Below are positions 2,558 through 13,616 of a stretch of DNA of 14,264 nucleotides, one piece after another. The stretch spans positions 16,814 through 31,077 of the forward strand of contig JAOAHK010000002.1 of NCBI GenBank assembly GCA_026415275.1, in the 5' to 3' direction. Each line of letters opens with the position of its first letter. Positions within the stretch are counted from its first letter, which is position 1. The notes beneath the pieces are model-generated. The model was not told the origin of the DNA, did not search any database, and saw only the letters and a program-made list of their open reading frames with translations. A program made the translations under genes and the position numbers. The DNA is from Anaerolineales bacterium (GTDB lineage Bacteria > Chloroflexota > Anaerolineae > Anaerolineales > UBA4823).

Positions 2558-2614
2558 CTTAAATGCAATGAATATCAAGTAGAATTAATTCCAACAAGTG
2601 AAAAGGAGTTGAAA

Positions 2615-3001
2615 ATGGCAGCGAAATTTCAAACCTGGTGGCAAGGATTGCGCTACCGTGGCGGTGGGACGATGGTTGCTTGGCTGCTGCATCGAATTGG
2701 GGGATTAGCGATGGTGATTTTTGTCGGAATGCATGTTTTTGCATCGTTTTTGACCCAACAATTTGGCAGCGGCTTTGGCACTACTCTCAATATCATCTAT
2801 CAATCGCCATATTTTCAAGCCCCACTTTATTTTTTCGTTATCTTTCATGCTCTGAACGGTTTCCGAATCATCCTCTTAGATACGTTCCCCAAACTCCTGG
2901 AGTATCAACGGGAGGTCACTTGGTTGCAATGGATGGTGTTTATCCCGCTATATGGCTTAGTGGTGTTCTTTATCATCGCTGGAATCGTGAGCGGGGAGTG
3001 A
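2615..3001 (+). CDS. sdhC: Succinate dehydrogenase membrane anchor, cytochrome b subunit
   Basis: The ATG at 2615 lies 6 bases after AAGGAG (2603-2608); a TTG two codons earlier overlaps that site and is unlikely to be used. The protein has 128 residues and three hydrophobic helices, at about 28-47, 70-88 and 106-126. Conserved marks are HRIGG at 26-30 and HALNGFRI at 78-85. His26, His40 and His78 are possible haem b ligands, with His78 the likeliest since it lies in the motif shared with the next subunit. It anchors the dehydrogenase at the cytoplasmic face of the membrane and helps form the quinone site. It is the first gene of sdhCDAB; the next ribosome site overlaps its stop. Confidence 0.88.
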   Translation: MAAKFQTWWQGLRYRGGGTMVAWLLHRIGGLAMVIFVGMHVFASFLTQQFGSGFGTTLNIIYQSPYFQAPLYFFVIFHALNGFRIILLDTFPKLLEYQREVTWLQWMVFIPLYGLVVFFIIAGIVSGE

Positions 3002-3013
3002 AAGGAGGTCGGA

Positions 3014-3436
3014 ATGCGAAATCGAACAGTTCCTCAACCAGCTATGAGCTTTGAATATATCATGTGGATGTTCACCCGCATTTCGGGCTTGGCGTTGCTC
3101 TTTTTGGGAGCGGTTAGCTTAGTAATGGCGTTCGTCATGGGCGCCCGTGAACTGTTGGATATGCCCACTTTAGCCCGCTGGACATTCTTTCCTAACCCCA
3201 ATCATGTGGTCAACAGTAAGATCCCCGATGTCACACAAGGTTGGGCAAACGCTTATTGGCAGATTATGCAAATCGTGATCGCCTTTTTTGGCATATCCCA
3301 TGGCTTGAATGGTTTACGGGTCATTATTGAGGATTACATTGGCAACACAATCTGGCAACCGATGCTGCGCGGCCTGATCTTTTTGGTTTGGTTGTTTTTC
3401 ACGATCATGGCTGTTTTTGTTATTTTGGCTTCTTAG
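3014..3436 (+). CDS. sdhD: Succinate dehydrogenase membrane anchor, second hydrophobic subunit
   Basis: This 140-residue protein starts at the ATG at 3014, four bases after AAAGGAGGTC, which itself begins on the last base of the sdhC stop. It has three hydrophobic helices at about 19-43, 82-105 and 117-138, joined by a polar loop of some 38 residues. HGLNGLRVIIED at 96-107 is the family motif and closely echoes HALNGFRIILLD of the preceding protein, so His96 is a likely haem b ligand. RISG at 22-25 corresponds to HRIGG of SdhC. Place in the operon and the motif identify it as the second anchor. Which of the two small subunits should be called C and which D is a convention. Confidence 0.83.
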   Translation: MRNRTVPQPAMSFEYIMWMFTRISGLALLFLGAVSLVMAFVMGARELLDMPTLARWTFFPNPNHVVNSKIPDVTQGWANAYWQIMQIVIAFFGISHGLNGLRVIIEDYIGNTIWQPMLRGLIFLVWLFFTIMAVFVILAS

Positions 3437-3461
3437 TATGTGGTAAAGGAGCAACAATCTA

Positions 3462-5258
3462 ATGAAAGTTCATCAATTTGATGTGGTAGTACTTGGCGCT
3501 GGCGGAGCAGGATTAATGGCAGCGTTATACGCGTCGAAAACGGCAACAACCGCAGTAGTTAGCAAACTATATCCCAGCCGCTCACACACAGGCACGGCGC
3601 AAGGAGGGGTTGGGGCAGCCCTAGGTAACCTTGAAGAAGACCATCCTGAATGGCATACGTTTGATACGGTCAAAGGCAGCGATTACCTTGGGGATCAAGA
3701 CGCCATTGAGTTCATGTGCAACGAAGCCGTGCGCGCCGTGTACGAACTTGAGCACATGGGCTTGCCCTTCTCACGCACACCCGATGGACGCATTGCGCAA
3801 CGTCCATTTGGCGGGCACACCAATAACATTACTGGCAAACCAGTGCGCCGTTCGTGTTACGCCGCCGACCGCACGGGTCACATGATCTTGCAAACCCTTT
3901 ACCAACAGTGCATCAAAAACAATGTCACCTTTTTCAATGAGTTTCAAGTATTGGATCTAATTCTGGTAAATGGCGTTGCTCAGGGCGTTGTAGCCATCGA
4001 GTTGGCAACCAGCGAGTTTCACATCTTTCACGCCAATGCAGTGATCATTGCCACAGGCGGGCATGGGCGCATTTGGAAGATCACTTCGAATGCCTATGCC
4101 ATGACCGGAGATGGCGTTGCGATTGCCTTGCGGCGTGGCATTCCAGCTGAGGATATGGAATTCTTCCAATTTCATCCCACTGGTATCTACAAGTTGGGAA
4201 TTCTGATCACTGAAGGGGTGCGTGGTGAGGGGGGTGTCCTGATCAATGGACAAGGCGAGCGCTTTATGGAGCGCTATGCGCCACGCGTCAAGGATTTAGC
4301 CTCTCGCGATGTGGTCAGCCGGGCAATGTATCTTGAATTGCGTGAAGGACGCGGCATAGACGGGAAAGATTTTCTATACCTCGATGTTCGCCCCGAAACT
4401 GTTAACAAGTTCGCAGCACTGGATGGCCGAACCCGCCCAGATGGCAGTCCCTACCGTGTGACAACCGAAGAGTTGCTCTTGAAACTGCCCGATATCATCG
4501 ATTTTTGTCGCACCTATTTAGGCATCGATCCCATCCAACAACCCATGCCCGTGCAACCCACTGCCCACTACGCCATGGGGGGCATACCAACGAACCGGTT
4601 TGGAGAGGTAGTGATTGACGAAAAGAATAAAGTCTTGCCCGGTTTATATGCTGCTGGCGAAGTATCTTGTGTTTCAGTGCATGGCGCCAACCGTTTAGGA
4701 ACGAACTCCTTGCTGGATTTGATCGTCTTCGGCAAACATGCTGGTTTGCGCGCCGCAGAGTATGCCTGCCAAACACAGTTCAAAACCCTTCCCAAAGACG
4801 CGGCTGACTTTGCCCGCGAGCAATTGGACAGCCTGCGGCGCTGCAAAGGGGAAGGCGAACGAGTTTCCGCCATTGCCGAAGAGATGAAAGAGGTGATGAT
4901 GGAACATGTAGGCGTTTTCCGCACCGCCGAAGGAATGGAACAAGCCCTGAAGAAACTGCAAGAGCTTAAGGAACGCTATCGTAACCTAAAACTGGATGAT
5001 TGTGGCACAGTGTTCAACACCGAATTGTTGAACGCCTGGGAAATTGGCAATCTGTTGGATTTGGCCATCGTGACCACTGCCTCGGCTTTAGCGCGCAAGG
5101 AGAGCCGCGGCGCCCACGCCCGCGAAGACTACCCCAAACGGGATGACAAAAACTGGCTAAAACACACCCTAGCTTGGCTGGAAGACGATGGCAAAGTTAA
5201 ACTGCGCTACAAACCGGTGGTCATCACCAAATATCCGCCAAAGGAACGAACCTACTAA
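3462..5258 (+). CDS. sdhA: Succinate dehydrogenase flavoprotein subunit
   Basis: This 598-residue protein oxidises succinate to fumarate in the citric acid cycle and passes electrons to the iron-sulfur subunit. The FAD-binding motif GAGGAG is at 12-17. His42 in SRSHTGTAQGG is the residue that binds FAD covalently in this family. Active-site segments are FHPTGIY (His238), TEGVRGEGG at 250-258, LASRDVVSR (Arg282, the proton-shuttle arginine), HYAMGG (His369) and HGANRLGTNS (His407, Arg411). The start ATG follows AAAGGAG by 10 bases. The length is close to the usual 570-600. Fumarate reductases share these motifs, but the pairing with two anchors and the nearby aerobic-type bc complex favour the succinate-oxidising direction. 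It is followed by sdhB after 11 bases. Confidence 0.96.
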   Translation: MKVHQFDVVVLGAGGAGLMAALYASKTATTAVVSKLYPSRSHTGTAQGGVGAALGNLEEDHPEWHTFDTVKGSDYLGDQDAIEFMCNEAVRAVYELEHMGLPFSRTPDGRIAQRPFGGHTNNITGKPVRRSCYAADRTGHMILQTLYQQCIKNNVTFFNEFQVLDLILVNGVAQGVVAIELATSEFHIFHANAVIIATGGHGRIWKITSNAYAMTGDGVAIALRRGIPAEDMEFFQFHPTGIYKLGILITEGVRGEGGVLINGQGERFMERYAPRVKDLASRDVVSRAMYLELREGRGIDGKDFLYLDVRPETVNKFAALDGRTRPDGSPYRVTTEELLLKLPDIIDFCRTYLGIDPIQQPMPVQPTAHYAMGGIPTNRFGEVVIDEKNKVLPGLYAAGEVSCVSVHGANRLGTNSLLDLIVFGKHAGLRAAEYACQTQFKTLPKDAADFAREQLDSLRRCKGEGERVSAIAEEMKEVMMEHVGVFRTAEGMEQALKKLQELKERYRNLKLDDCGTVFNTELLNAWEIGNLLDLAIVTTASALARKESRGAHAREDYPKRDDKNWLKHTLAWLEDDGKVKLRYKPVVITKYPPKERTY

Positions 5259-5269
5259 GCGAGGTGGCA

Positions 5270-5974
5270 ATGGAAATCAAAGTCAAAATTCTGCGTTTCA
5301 ACCCCGAAACTGATAAGCGTCCGCATTATCAAACTTTTCGTGTCGAAGCAGAACCCACCGACCGGGTCTTAGATTTGCTGGAGAAGATCAAAGGCTACCA
5401 GGATGGTAGCTTGGCTTTTCGGCGCTCTTGCGCACATGGCATTTGTGGATCGGATGCAATGCGGATTAATGGCATGAATCGCTTAGCCTGCAAGACATTG
5501 GTCAAAGACTTGAGCAAAGGCACGATTACCGTCGAGCCGCTTTTGGGTTTATCCCTTATCAAAGATTTGATTGTGGATATGGATCCTTTCTTTGAGCATT
5601 ACGAATCGGTGATGCCCTATCTGGTCAATGATGAGCCACCGCCGTTGAAAGAGCGTCTGCAATCCCCCGAAGAGCGTGAACGCTTCGACGATACGACCAA
5701 GTGTATTTTATGCGCTGCTTGTACCACTTCTTGTCCCTCGTTCTGGTCAAACGGCCGCTATGTCGGGCCTGCGGCGATTGTCAATGCTCATCGTTTCATC
5801 TTCGACAGCCGCGACCGCGCCGGAGCCGAACGCCTGCGCATCCTAAGCGACCAATTTGGCGTCTATCGCTGTCACACGATTTTCAACTGCACGCTCGCTT
5901 GCCCGCGCGAGATTCAGATCACCAAAGCGATTGGCGAGATAAAACGGGCAATTGCTACAGGAAGTTTGGATTAA
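5270..5974 (+). CDS. sdhB: Succinate dehydrogenase iron-sulfur subunit
   Basis: The protein of 234 residues carries the three iron-sulfur centres that take electrons from FAD to quinone. The plant-type [2Fe-2S] motif has Cys54, Cys59, Asp62 and Cys74, with Asp in the third place as in E. coli SdhB. The [4Fe-4S] and [3Fe-4S] ligands are in CILCAACTTSC at 145-155 (Cys145, 148, 151, 155) and CHTIFNCTLAC at 201-211 (Cys201, 207, 211). Two starts are close: GTG at 5264 and ATG at 5270. I chose the ATG because GAGG at 5261-5264 serves it with a 5-base gap and overlaps the GTG. It is the last gene of sdhCDAB. No clear terminator hairpin follows. Confidence 0.95.
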   Translation: MEIKVKILRFNPETDKRPHYQTFRVEAEPTDRVLDLLEKIKGYQDGSLAFRRSCAHGICGSDAMRINGMNRLACKTLVKDLSKGTITVEPLLGLSLIKDLIVDMDPFFEHYESVMPYLVNDEPPPLKERLQSPEERERFDDTTKCILCAACTTSCPSFWSNGRYVGPAAIVNAHRFIFDSRDRAGAERLRILSDQFGVYRCHTIFNCTLACPREIQITKAIGEIKRAIATGSLD

Positions 5975-10082: not shown

Positions 10083-11168
10083 TTAACTCTCCTCCAGAGG
10101 CAAGAATCCTCGACCGAGAATTTCCTGCGCTGGGATAACCATGACAAAAGCTTTCTGATCGACTTTGCGGACAGAGGCTTTGAGTTGGTTGATTTCTGTA
10201 ATCGTCAATGCACAGAGCAAGATGCGGTGTTCCTTGCCTGTGTACATGCCGGTGCCGGCCATGGCAGTTACGCCACGGTGCATGTCCTTCAAGATGATTT
10301 CAGCAATCGCTTCCGCTTGGTCGGTGATGATCATAGCGACCAATTGTTTGCGACGACGCGATTGACGAAACCAAGGTTTGTTGGCTTCGGCGGTTGCCCG
10401 ACTGACCGGAATGCCGCGTGCCTCCTCCAAGTAGCGGGGCAAGACCTCTCCGGTCGCCTGTTGGAGAGAAGCGGTAGCTAAACTGATGGCAATCATCAGG
10501 AGGTAAAAAAGGACTCCGCCACTCAAGACCAATATGCCGGGAATGCTGCCAATTGCGGCTCTCTCCATCAGTTCATCCCAATGCTGGATCATCGTAGGGT
10601 ACATGATCAGTTTGGCCAACCAGGAGATGCCCAAGATCAGGTAAATCCATAAGTAATTTCGCCGCAGGCGCCGCCCAATTGCCTCCCACATCGAAATTGG
10701 GAAATCGGGGTGAAGCAGATTTTCGGCAAGGCTCTCTGCCCAATCGGCTGCAGGATGAAAGGGCGGAACGAGCATGGCGGCGTAGAAGTCGGTTTCCATC
10801 AAACGTACCCGATAAGACCATAACTCATAATAGCGATAGCGGCGGGCTTCAATGTAGAGGAACAGCGTGATTAAGAGCGTGTTTAGGATGATGACCCCAT
10901 GAAACCCGTCAGGGTCAAATGCTAACGCAATTGCCGCCCCTGTAGTGACCACTGCCCAATTGGTGGTTGTATCCAAGCGCTGGCGCCAGACATTGGCGCG
11001 TTGGATTTCGGCGCGGAAGAAATGCACCATCGCGGTCGTAAACTCGCTGGCTTTTAGTCGATAGCCGCGATAGGTCCATACCGCTTCTGAAGTCGCTGTG
11101 GATTCACTTGAAGAAGCGGATGGCTGGAAGGGCGTTTCTGCAGTTGAATTCTCCTCGTTTGGTGCCAT
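10083..11168 (-). CDS. DUF2270 membrane protein with a C-terminal DUF2179-like domain
   Basis: The protein has 361 residues from the ATG ending at 11168, 16 bases after the mutase stop. A frame from 11216 would overlap the mutase and has no ribosome site; that of 11168 is weak too. After a Ser/Thr/Glu-rich N-terminus of about 30 residues, residues 40-235 match the DUF2270 pattern: FFRAEIQRANVWRQRLDTTT, EARRYRYYELWSYRVRLMET, and LLHPDFPISMWEAIGRRLRR. There are four hydrophobic helices at about 70-84, 91-106, 172-189 and 209-231. Residues 275-355 resemble DUF2179, the cytoplasmic tail of YitT-type membrane proteins, with GVTAMAGTGMYTGKEHRIL. Function is unknown; DUF2179 has a small alpha/beta fold suggestive of ligand sensing. 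It sits between a CoA mutase and a diguanylate cyclase in one operon. Confidence 0.82.
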   Translation of the reverse strand: MAPNEENSTAETPFQPSASSSESTATSEAVWTYRGYRLKASEFTTAMVHFFRAEIQRANVWRQRLDTTTNWAVVTTGAAIALAFDPDGFHGVIILNTLLITLFLYIEARRYRYYELWSYRVRLMETDFYAAMLVPPFHPAADWAESLAENLLHPDFPISMWEAIGRRLRRNYLWIYLILGISWLAKLIMYPTMIQHWDELMERAAIGSIPGILVLSGGVLFYLLMIAISLATASLQQATGEVLPRYLEEARGIPVSRATAEANKPWFRQSRRRKQLVAMIITDQAEAIAEIILKDMHRGVTAMAGTGMYTGKEHRILLCALTITEINQLKASVRKVDQKAFVMVIPAQEILGRGFLPLEES

Positions 11169-11184
11169 CACTCTAAGATTGATT

Positions 11185-12864
11185 TTACACCCAAGTCGGC
11201 TCGCGGTATACCCCATATACAGTTTTCATCACGCCGATAATTTCGCCTAAGGTGGCATAAGCGCGTACAGCGTCCAGAATATAGGGCATCGTATTTTCGG
11301 TTCCTTGGCAAGCAATGCGCAGTCGGTCTAATGTTTGTCCAACTCGGCCGTTGTCCCGCTGCATCCGTAGCCGACGCAAACGTTCGATCTGGCGCGGGTA
11401 CCCTTGAGGGTCCATCTCTAAAATGGGGATCGTGATCGGCTTCTCGTCCTGATAGGCATTTACACCGACAATTATGCGGTCGCCGCGATCAATTTCCTGT
11501 TGATAGCGGTAAGCTGAGTCGGCAATTTCGCCTTGGAAAAAGCCTTTTTCAATGGCAGGAAGCACGCCGCCCAATGCCTCAATGCGCTGAAAATACTCAT
11601 AGGCTTGCTTTTCCAAACGATTGGTTTGCGCCTCGACAAAGAAGGATCCACCTAAGGGGTCAATTGTGTTTGCTACACCCGACTCTTCGGCGATGATCTG
11701 TTGCGTGCGGAGGGCAATGGTCACCGCTTGCTCGGAGGGAAGAGCAAGCGCTTCGTCCATGCTATTGGTGTGCAAAGATTGAGTGCCGCCCAAAACCGCA
11801 GCCAGGGCTTGGATAGCAACGCGCACAATGTTGTTTTCAGGCTGTTGGGCGGTGAGGGATACACCGGCAGTTTGGGTGTGAAAGCGCATCAGCCAGGAGC
11901 GCGGATTCTGCGCCTTAAAGGTCTGACGCATTTCACGCGCCCAGATGCGCCGCGCAGCGCGGTATTTGGCAATTTCTTCAAAAAAGTCGTTATGAGCGTT
12001 GAAAAAGAACGAAAGTCTTGGTGCAAAGCTATCGATCTCCAGCCCCCGTTTCAGCGCCCAACGCACATATTCCATCCCATCGGCAAGCGTGAACGCAAGT
12101 TCTTGAGCCGCTGTTGCACCGGCTTCGCGAATATGGTAACCCGAGATGCTGATCGGATTCCATTGGGGCAGGGTTTGCGCACCATATTCAATCGTATCAA
12201 TCACCAAGCGCATAGATGGCTCAGGAGGAAAGATGTACTCCTTCTGGGCGATATATTCTTTCAAGATGTCGTTTTGAATTGTGCCCCGCAATTGATCGGG
12301 GCGGACGCCTTGTTTCTCGGCCGTGGCGATATACATTGCCCAGATAACCGCTGCGGGTGAATTGATGGTCATACTGGTCGAGACCTTATCCAGCGGGATG
12401 CCATCCAGCAAGATTTCCATATCCTTCAAAGAAGAAACAGCTACCCCGCATTTGCCAAATTCCCCTTCAGCTTCAGGGGCATCGGTGTCATAGCCCATCA
12501 GGGTTGGCAGGTCAAAAGCAATAGATAACCCGGTCTGCCCTTGTTCTAAAAGATACTTAAACCGGGCGTTGGTTTCCTCGGCGGTGCCAAATCCGGCGAA
12601 CATGCGCATGGTCCACAGCCGGCCTCGATGCATCGTAGGATGAATGCCCCGCGTGTAGGGATACTCACCAGGTAAGCCCAAGTCCCGCAGGTAGTCGAGG
12701 TTCGCAACGTCCAATGGCGTGTAAAGCCGCTCAACAGTTTCAGAGGATGTGGTCATGAAGCGGGGATTGCGTTCCGGTAGTCGTTTGAGGCTTTCAGATA
12801 GGGTAGTCTCTTGCCAATTCTGAATAGCTTGGCTCAGCTCAGCCAGTTTCTCCCAATCGTACAT
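11185..12864 (-). CDS. Cobalamin-dependent acyl-CoA mutase large subunit, isobutyryl-CoA mutase-like
   Basis: This 559-residue protein is the substrate-binding large subunit of the methylmalonyl-CoA mutase family, without the fused B12-binding domain. The ATG ending at 12864 has a strong AAGGAGG site five bases away. Its numbering happens to coincide with Propionibacterium MutB: the CoA-contact residues Arg82, Thr85 and Arg87 (RLWTMR) and the catalytic His244 (SGYH) fall at the same positions. The two residues that hold the substrate carboxylate in methylmalonyl-CoA mutase, Tyr89 and Arg207, are Phe89 (RMFAGF) and Gln207 (YIAQKEY). The same pair defines isobutyryl-CoA mutase, which interconverts isobutyryl-CoA and butyryl-CoA. 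A methylmalonyl-CoA role is therefore doubtful. The small cobalamin-binding subunit is not in the window. It is the first gene of a three-gene operon with an extended -10 upstream. Confidence 0.9.
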
Positions 12865-12915
12865 CCCAACCTCCTTTGGCATGGTTCAAGGGGAGCGAAA
12901 CGAATGAACAAAGAA

Positions 12916-12973: not shown

Positions 12974-13616
12974 TTATGTAGACAAATTGTTACCTCGGTA
13001 GATTCGCACGCAATTTCGACCCTCTTGTTTTGCTTGATAGAGAGCAAAGTCTGCAAAGTAAATAAGCGTCTCTATGGAATCAATTTGTTGTTCTGTAACG
13101 GCAATACCGATGCTGGCAGTGACTTGGATTGAGATTTCCTCAATCCGAAAGATTTGGGCTTCAAACGTTTGACAAAGACGCCAAGCAACTTTCTCAGCCT
13201 CAGCAGCGTCTATGCCTGGCATAAGGATTGCAAATTCCTCTCCGCCATAACGACAAAGCAAGTCAATAGCACGTAAATTATTGCTCAGCCACAGACCAAT
13301 GGCATGCAGCAATTTATCTCCAACCCCGTGCCCGTAGTGGTCGTTTACATCTTTGAAGTGGTCAAGATCGAGCATCAACAACGCGATGATTATGCGCCCG
13401 TGCCAAATTAAACAAACCGCGGGCTAATCCAGCTTGATAAACAGAGCCCTCTTTCTCTTCACCAGCCAGTTGACATGCTTGCTGAGCAAACTGAATCGCG
13501 CGCGCCGGGTCGCTGAAACTCAGCTCAGCCGATAGCGCATTCAATAAGTCAACCCGTTGCTGGCGATCAGTGGTTAGCTCTAACCGGGATTCCAGAGAAA
13601 CAATACGCTGATTCAT
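12974..13616 (-). pseudogene. Decayed TPR-GGDEF diguanylate cyclase gene (internal deletion and frameshift)
   Basis: Two overlapping minus-strand frames are pieces of one gene. The first (13616-13362) begins MNQRIVSLESRLE and has TPR-like helices such as LSFSDPARAIQFAQQACQLA, ending in GLARGLFNLARAHNHR before it runs into unrelated codons and a stop. The second frame, from about 13381 to 12974, continues with LMLDLDHFKDVNDHYGHG. It carries an intact GGEEF motif, an I-site RAID five residues before it, and the domain end ALYQAKQEGRN. The DPLTGLxNRR opening of the GGDEF domain and the rest of the TPR region are missing, so a large internal piece was lost and the frame shifted near 13383-13390. 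The second frame has only a TTG start without ribosome site. An assembly error could explain the frameshift but not easily the missing region. Confidence 0.75.

Follow-up and report, generated by a model that had tools for sequence, protein, structure and literature searches.

The window, by which we mean the whole 14,264-nucleotide stretch of DNA that was analysed, carries on its minus strand a gene for the large, substrate-binding subunit of an acyl-CoA mutase, read from an ATG at 12864 to a stop codon ending at 11185 (Table 1). The Pfam search gave PF01642 (759.8 bits) as the sole match to its 559-aa product (hereafter the query), with no B12-binding domain, and TIGR00641 matched with 799.4 bits; both scores are far above the respective cut-offs.

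Table 1. Features of the mutase gene and its immediate surroundings (positions in the window)
Feature	Position	Strand	Basis or remark
Acyl-CoA mutase large (substrate-binding) subunit gene, isobutyryl-CoA mutase-type	11185..12864	-	Open frame, PF01642, TIGR00641
Ribosome-binding-site-like aaaggagg	12870..12877	-	Read directly; 5 bases upstream of ATG 12864
Phe89 codon	12598..12600	-	Tyr in methylmalonyl-CoA mutase, Ile in 2-hydroxyisobutyryl-CoA mutase
Ala116 codon	12517..12519	-	Asp in HcmA (4r3u)
Gln207 codon	12244..12246	-	Arg in methylmalonyl-CoA mutase
His244 codon	12133..12135	-	Alignment
DUF2270/DUF2179 membrane protein	10083..11168	-	Directly downstream; start 11168 assumed, frame open to ATG 11216

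The gene is flanked by a truncated GGDEF gene and by the DUF2270/DUF2179 gene; the latter adjoins the mutase gene both here and in a related locus (L011), and no functional link between the two is known. The GGDEF frame (12974-13381, minus strand, upstream to about 13600) lacks the first ~35 positions of the domain, and a TPR-like stretch, recognized by eye, lies upstream of it in another frame and ends in a stop; together they may be what is left of a larger diguanylate cyclase gene. Farther away, positions 1-2486 of the minus strand read as genes of a bc-type complex, namely a Rieske protein, a short cytochrome b (219 aa) and a subunit-IV-like protein that runs on into two CXXCH haem motifs, and positions 2609-5974 of the plus strand read as succinate dehydrogenase genes for two membrane subunits, a flavoprotein and an iron-sulphur protein. 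Succinyl-CoA, the product of the methylmalonyl-CoA mutase pathway, leads to the substrate of succinate dehydrogenase. No Rfam family matched the window at the gathering threshold, and hence by this test it holds no cobalamin riboswitch.

Residues at the substrate site

In acyl-CoA mutases the barrel of the large subunit holds the acyl-CoA and the small subunit supplies adenosylcobalamin (AdoCbl), whose Co-C bond is homolysed to give a 5'-deoxyadenosyl radical, after which the CoA-carbonyl group migrates. Tyr89 and Arg207 of methylmalonyl-CoA mutase (MCM) touch the carboxylate of the substrate, and Phe and Gln at these places abolish that charge match. Reading from the ATG placed Phe89 (in the context WTMRMFAGF) and Gln207 exactly where the initial annotation had put them, and Arg82, Thr85, Arg87 and His244, which it had listed as kept, were all found in the query. 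His244, which we take to be the active-site histidine, was aligned in 122/122 relatives with the Phe/Gln pair (F/Q) and in 48/48 with Tyr/Arg (Y/R). Arg82 gives way to Lys in 42 of the 122 F/Q relatives and to Gln in two, and is hence not diagnostic. Both specificity positions of the query carry the Phe and Gln that the IcmA type of isobutyryl-CoA mutase requires, and not the Tyr89/Arg207 required of an MCM, which is the pair found in the human mutase. PMC7238569 credits Jost et al. (2015) with finding two sites that determine the specificity of acyl-CoA mutases, and assigns a protein with Tyr/Arg at both to MCM.

The pair is shared by the query and all 120 best-listed database relatives (the best 120 of 8000 scored) and by 79 of the 80 matches from named genomes, the lone exception (L088) being Y/R; its presence in the query is therefore beyond chance. 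Of the 225 aligned rows that shared 54% identity or more with the query across 400 or more columns, 167 were F/Q and 58 were Y/R, and neither F/R nor Y/Q occurred; the rows of one genome count twice here because it was included in duplicate. The earlier statement that Streptomyces IcmA is itself Phe/Gln was confirmed in 5/5 IcmA-type Streptomyces proteins checked (P0123, P0182, P0216, P0227 and P0240), some of which are named isobutyryl-CoA mutase by their source. Matches on Streptomyces plasmids were rejected as IcmA references, both of the fetched ones being Y/R.

Ten positions separated the F/Q from the Y/R set, and at nine of these the query group agreed with IcmA; the groups having been defined via residues 89 and 207, conservation at those two is no evidence in this comparison. 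The residues that IcmA shares with most of the query group include His75 (present in 107/122 F/Q relatives), Leu122, Cys139, Lys208 and Glu209. The query and Streptomyces IcmA are ~54% identical over 539 positions; they differ at residue 175, the tenth position, and, when compared with 4r3u, by an insertion near residues 425-440.

The warning that a database label of methylmalonyl-CoA mutase would be wrong would apply to the close relatives, which are F/Q and yet are mostly named methylmalonyl-CoA mutase, "...family protein" or "...N-terminal domain" by their sources; a single one among the best 120 listed is called acyl-CoA mutase large subunit family protein. Other combinations occur at the two sites in some further proteins. 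A Sphingobium plasmid encodes an acyl-CoA mutase with Leu/Asn on a very long branch (L130), whose substrate is possibly different, and a Sinorhizobium plasmid encodes one with Val/Gln and an HcmA-like Asp (L127), near genes for an aminotransferase, an enoyl-CoA hydratase and an AMP-binding protein.

Phylogeny

A tree of 57 proteins was built with columns 89 and 207 masked; IcmF, L126, L129, L130, L240 and some others were omitted. One branch (97/98) split 19 Tyr/Arg proteins from 38 Gln207 proteins, the latter made up of 34 F/Q, three I/Q and one V/Q. Placement of the query inside a clade of proven MCMs, named with the initial annotation as the outcome to be checked, was not recovered: the query fell outside the Y/R side. 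It grouped with L011, L012 and L021 (100/99) within a 15-row clade of Chloroflexota and Thermoplasmatota (100/99).

Forcing the query clade together with the Chloroflexota Y/R proteins lowered the log-likelihood by 44.7 and was weakly rejected by the AU test (p-AU 0.035). A topology with the query clade and all Y/R proteins on one side stood 5.6 log units above the free tree (p-AU 0.60), and the query clade may thus branch next to Y/R; a sister relation to Streptomyces IcmA was neither supported nor rejected (p-AU 0.39). Taken with the masked tree, these tests indicate that the query does not lie nested within the MCMs; more than one arrangement of the Gln207 subclades fits them. On an earlier tree, which had IcmF as outgroup and included long rows, the Y/R state needed two changes.

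The tree also bears on whether the query could be a 2-hydroxyisobutyryl-CoA mutase or another hydroxyacyl-CoA mutase. HcmA (4r3u) is its nearest solved structure by sequence (602 bits, 51% identity), and is likewise a standalone large subunit with Gln207; moreover, a haloarchaeal F/Q protein (L133) joined the HcmA clade together with I/Q and V/Q proteins (99/95), and so the F/Q pair on its own neither makes a complete signature nor fixes the clade. However, HcmA and its relatives from Methylibium PM1 (L123) and Xanthobacter Py2 (L124) are Ile89/Gln207 and form a clade of their own (100/99), separate from that of the query. At position 116 HcmA has Asp, as does L127, whereas the query and all 122/122 F/Q rows have Ala; this Asp presumably belongs to the signature of 2-hydroxyisobutyryl-CoA mutase. 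With both Ile89 and Asp116 missing from the query, we regard a hydroxyacyl-CoA mutase as very improbable, in agreement with the initial annotation, which had ranked it lower on the strength of residue 89.

Neighbourhoods of related mutase genes

The genes around some relatives point to four-carbon chemistry. In a Chloroflexi locus whose mutase is 78% identical to the query (L021), one strand carries genes for 3-hydroxybutyryl-CoA dehydrogenase, short-chain enoyl-CoA hydratase, acyl-CoA dehydrogenase, an Fe-S CCG protein and a metallo-beta-lactamase-fold protein, followed by the F/Q mutase, EtfB (by similarity cluster) and EtfA, which is a butyryl-CoA beta-oxidation cluster. An archaeal locus (L071) has EtfA, EtfB, acyl-CoA synthetase, acyl-CoA dehydrogenase and adenosyltransferase (by similarity cluster) before the mutase, and from the mutase on a B12 subunit, MeaB, and then a hydratase, a dehydrogenase and a thiolase (the last three by Pfam). 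The archaeal F/Q gene is broken into two frames in the assembly (L071:7914-9674). In an actinomycetotal locus (L082) the mutase lies among genes for thiolase, 3-hydroxybutyryl-CoA dehydrogenase, acyl-CoA dehydrogenase, hydratase, B12 subunit and ETF.

In the wide set, five of the 79 F/Q loci (L021, L064, L071, L082 and L089) had at least three of six beta-oxidation genes, as did 0/20 F/Q and 0/20 Y/R loci within the class of the window; the difference between 5/79 and 0/20 is not significant (p 0.58), and the absence in the class means that the neighbourhood there does not name the substrate. The 40 class loci had been picked for having the two large-subunit genes apart from each other, and a contig end truncates several of them; an epimerase gene lay within ~8 kb at 10/20 of the Y/R loci vs 1/20 of the F/Q loci (p 0.003).

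The F/Q pair also fits other uncharged acyl-CoA substrates, such as isovaleryl-CoA, pivalyl-CoA or a longer 2-methylacyl-CoA. IcmF-type proteins are F/Q as well, and PMC10481361 has IcmF acting on pivalyl/isovaleryl-CoA besides isobutyryl-CoA. The neighbours in L021, L071 and L082 form a four-carbon beta-oxidation set, which argues against such a substrate, and we hold it to be unlikely.

Gene complement of the host genome and of the class

The host genome (G000; 2.7 Mb in 480 contigs, 67% complete) contains two PF01642 genes, that of the window and a second (L002, contig C210). The protein of L002 has the same domain and His244 and is 59% identical to the query over 551 positions; it differs in being Tyr89/Arg207 and in having alongside it, as the next gene, one that matches the annotated methylmalonyl-CoA epimerase of Ilyobacter (L125). 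With a Y/R paralogue beside an epimerase, the two activities look divided between the paralogues. The separate B12-binding small subunit that the IcmA type requires is present on another contig than the mutase: one mutase-type small subunit of 139 aa was found, followed by MeaB (contig C333, L003). TIGR00640 had five matches in the genome, and the 139-aa subunit (180.5 bits) is the only one above the cut-off among the three listed; at 67% completeness a second small subunit is possible. A 3-hydroxybutyryl-CoA dehydrogenase gene beside a thiolase gene (C79) and two acyl-CoA dehydrogenase genes are also present.

We were able to follow this arrangement through a sample of 100 genomes of the class, in which those at least 90% complete and at most 5% contaminated are termed good. 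Standalone large subunits of the F/Q type occurred in 63 genomes (called by identity; 62 typed by sequence, G047 lacking the region), of the Y/R type in 74 (part typed by sequence, the rest by 54-67% identity) and of both types in 53. Exactly one standalone TIGR00640 small subunit was present in 37/39 good genomes with both large subunits, contig-end fragments (G078, G059) and fused copies (G067, G035, G096 and the IcmF of G094) not being counted as standalone. In G071 and G093 there were two, the additional one lying next to a third large-subunit paralogue of the Y/R type (L229, L230), and the sole small subunit of G012 adjoins this third paralogue as well (L231). When the six genomes with the third paralogue (G005, G012, G034, G048, G071 and G093), three of them good and with both large subunits, were left out, one standalone small subunit was found in 36/36 good genomes with both, a count in which G013, G020, G050 and G056, each with an extra Y/R copy, were kept. 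The third Y/R large paralogue, at 46-49% identity, was seen in L228-L232 and L239, with a small subunit nearby in L228-L231.

Among the good genomes with F/Q only, 6/7 had one small subunit and G035 had two; two of these seven (G074, G083) gave a second, low-scoring PF01642 match that was not typed. One small subunit was found in 14/14 good genomes with Y/R only, and of the 11 good genomes with neither large subunit eight had none and three had one. The small subunit thus accompanies either large subunit and, in genomes that hold both, a single one would serve the two, provided that no divergent small subunit escaped detection.

A different account of the same co-occurrence is that the query is after all an MCM, or a second large subunit within the MCM complex, in a heteromer of Y/R, F/Q and small subunits. 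This would agree with the usual presence of one small subunit per genome and with loci in which Y/R, epimerase, F/Q, B12 subunit and MeaB all lie together, as seen in at least 11 class genomes (L170, L172, L187, L194, L198, L201, L214, L215, L216, L219 and L220) and in L059. Against it, F/Q is the only PF01642 match in G045, G053 and G082 (94-96% complete), and a standalone small subunit is present in each. Furthermore, G067 and G035 possess a MutA/MutB-like pair (with the B12 domain fused in G067) and still keep F/Q and the standalone small subunit, many loci outside the Chloroflexota combine F/Q with a B12 subunit and have no Y/R in the stretch, and the F/Q pair itself is kept throughout the 120 best-listed relatives. 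We therefore consider the MCM or heteromer reading quite unlikely. For the Anaerolineae we lean towards one AdoCbl subunit and one MeaB held in common by the Tyr/Arg methylmalonyl-CoA and Phe/Gln isobutyryl-CoA mutases, an interchangeable B12 module that would partition a scarce cofactor between two pathways; gene content and the recurrent single-cluster arrangement suggest as much.

Methylmalonate-semialdehyde dehydrogenase (TIGR01722) was found in 17/63 F/Q genomes vs 11/37 others (p 0.82), and an inverse link of F/Q to classical valine breakdown was accordingly dropped; the test is a weak one because the family may also serve in inositol breakdown.

Discussion

The window gene probably encodes the large subunit of a two-component, IcmA-type isobutyryl-CoA mutase that shares its small subunit with the MCM of the genome. 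The proposal of an uncharged acyl-CoA such as isobutyryl-CoA/butyryl-CoA as substrate gains support from the substrate-site pair, which is that of IcmA and unlike that of MCM. Because Phe89 and Gln207 replace the carboxylate-holding Tyr/Arg, the pocket would be expected to accept an uncharged branched acyl-CoA. A separate AdoCbl-carrying subunit would pair with the large subunit, with the MeaB GTPase keeping order (both are encoded on the contig of L003), and isobutyryl-CoA and butyryl-CoA would be interconverted by a radical 1,2-shift of the CoA-carbonyl group. Valine-derived isobutyryl-CoA could thereby be linked to butyryl-CoA beta-oxidation or, if the reaction runs in reverse, branched primers could be formed; we infer the direction no less than the substrate. 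The small subunit of L003 would also serve the Tyr/Arg MCM encoded at L002.

This class of enzyme and its mislabelling are already known; the likely sharing of the B12 subunit is the point added here. In Streptomyces IcmA/IcmB (EC 5.4.99.13) the large subunit is likewise standalone and Phe/Gln at both sites, and the separate B12-binding subunit is IcmB. The query differs from that system in that its small subunit lies on another contig and is probably shared. A separate B12-binding subunit of isobutyryl-CoA mutase appears among the reference titles in PMC2847961. In Syntrophothermus lipocalidus TGB-C1 both isomerisation of isobutyrate and a matching four-gene cluster are reported in PMC5017805; the proposed isobutyryl-CoA mutase genes of that organism are clustered (Slip_0757-0760), whereas the organism of the window is uncultured and its gene stands alone. 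The open-licence literature searched yielded no paper on an acyl-CoA mutase in Chloroflexi; one paper there on methylmalonyl-CoA mutase and isobutyryl-CoA in Chloroflexi pools MCM, ICM and MeaA, and the consulted passages of open-licence papers on isobutyryl-CoA mutase, MCM and the small subunit made no mention of a small subunit shared between the two enzymes.

The F/Q gene is very common in the Anaerolineae (63/100 class genomes) and mostly bears methylmalonyl-CoA mutase names. Such a label would shift isobutyrate and valine chemistry into the propionate pathway, and would tally a carbon-fixation or propionate enzyme where none exists. If the sharing is true, the single B12 subunit of the two mutases would be a simple system in which to test the allotment of AdoCbl and its chaperone to different enzymes.

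Mislabelling of acyl-CoA mutases has been described for IcmF (PMC7764203). IcmF resembles the query in its Phe/Gln pair, seen in the fused proteins L225 (G094), L226 (G069) and L227 (G037); it is a single polypeptide with B12, GTPase and mutase domains, whereas the 559-aa query consists of the mutase domain only, is 38-39% identical to IcmF and scores 362.5 against an IcmF cut-off of 1500. In the class sample three genomes (G037, G069 and G094) had a full IcmF that exceeded the cut-off, and a fourth (G096) had a partial one. The standalone F/Q gene was missing from 4/4 of these genomes (p 0.017 when kinship is ignored; three belong to one family), a pattern that weakly fits the replacement of one isobutyryl-CoA mutase by another.
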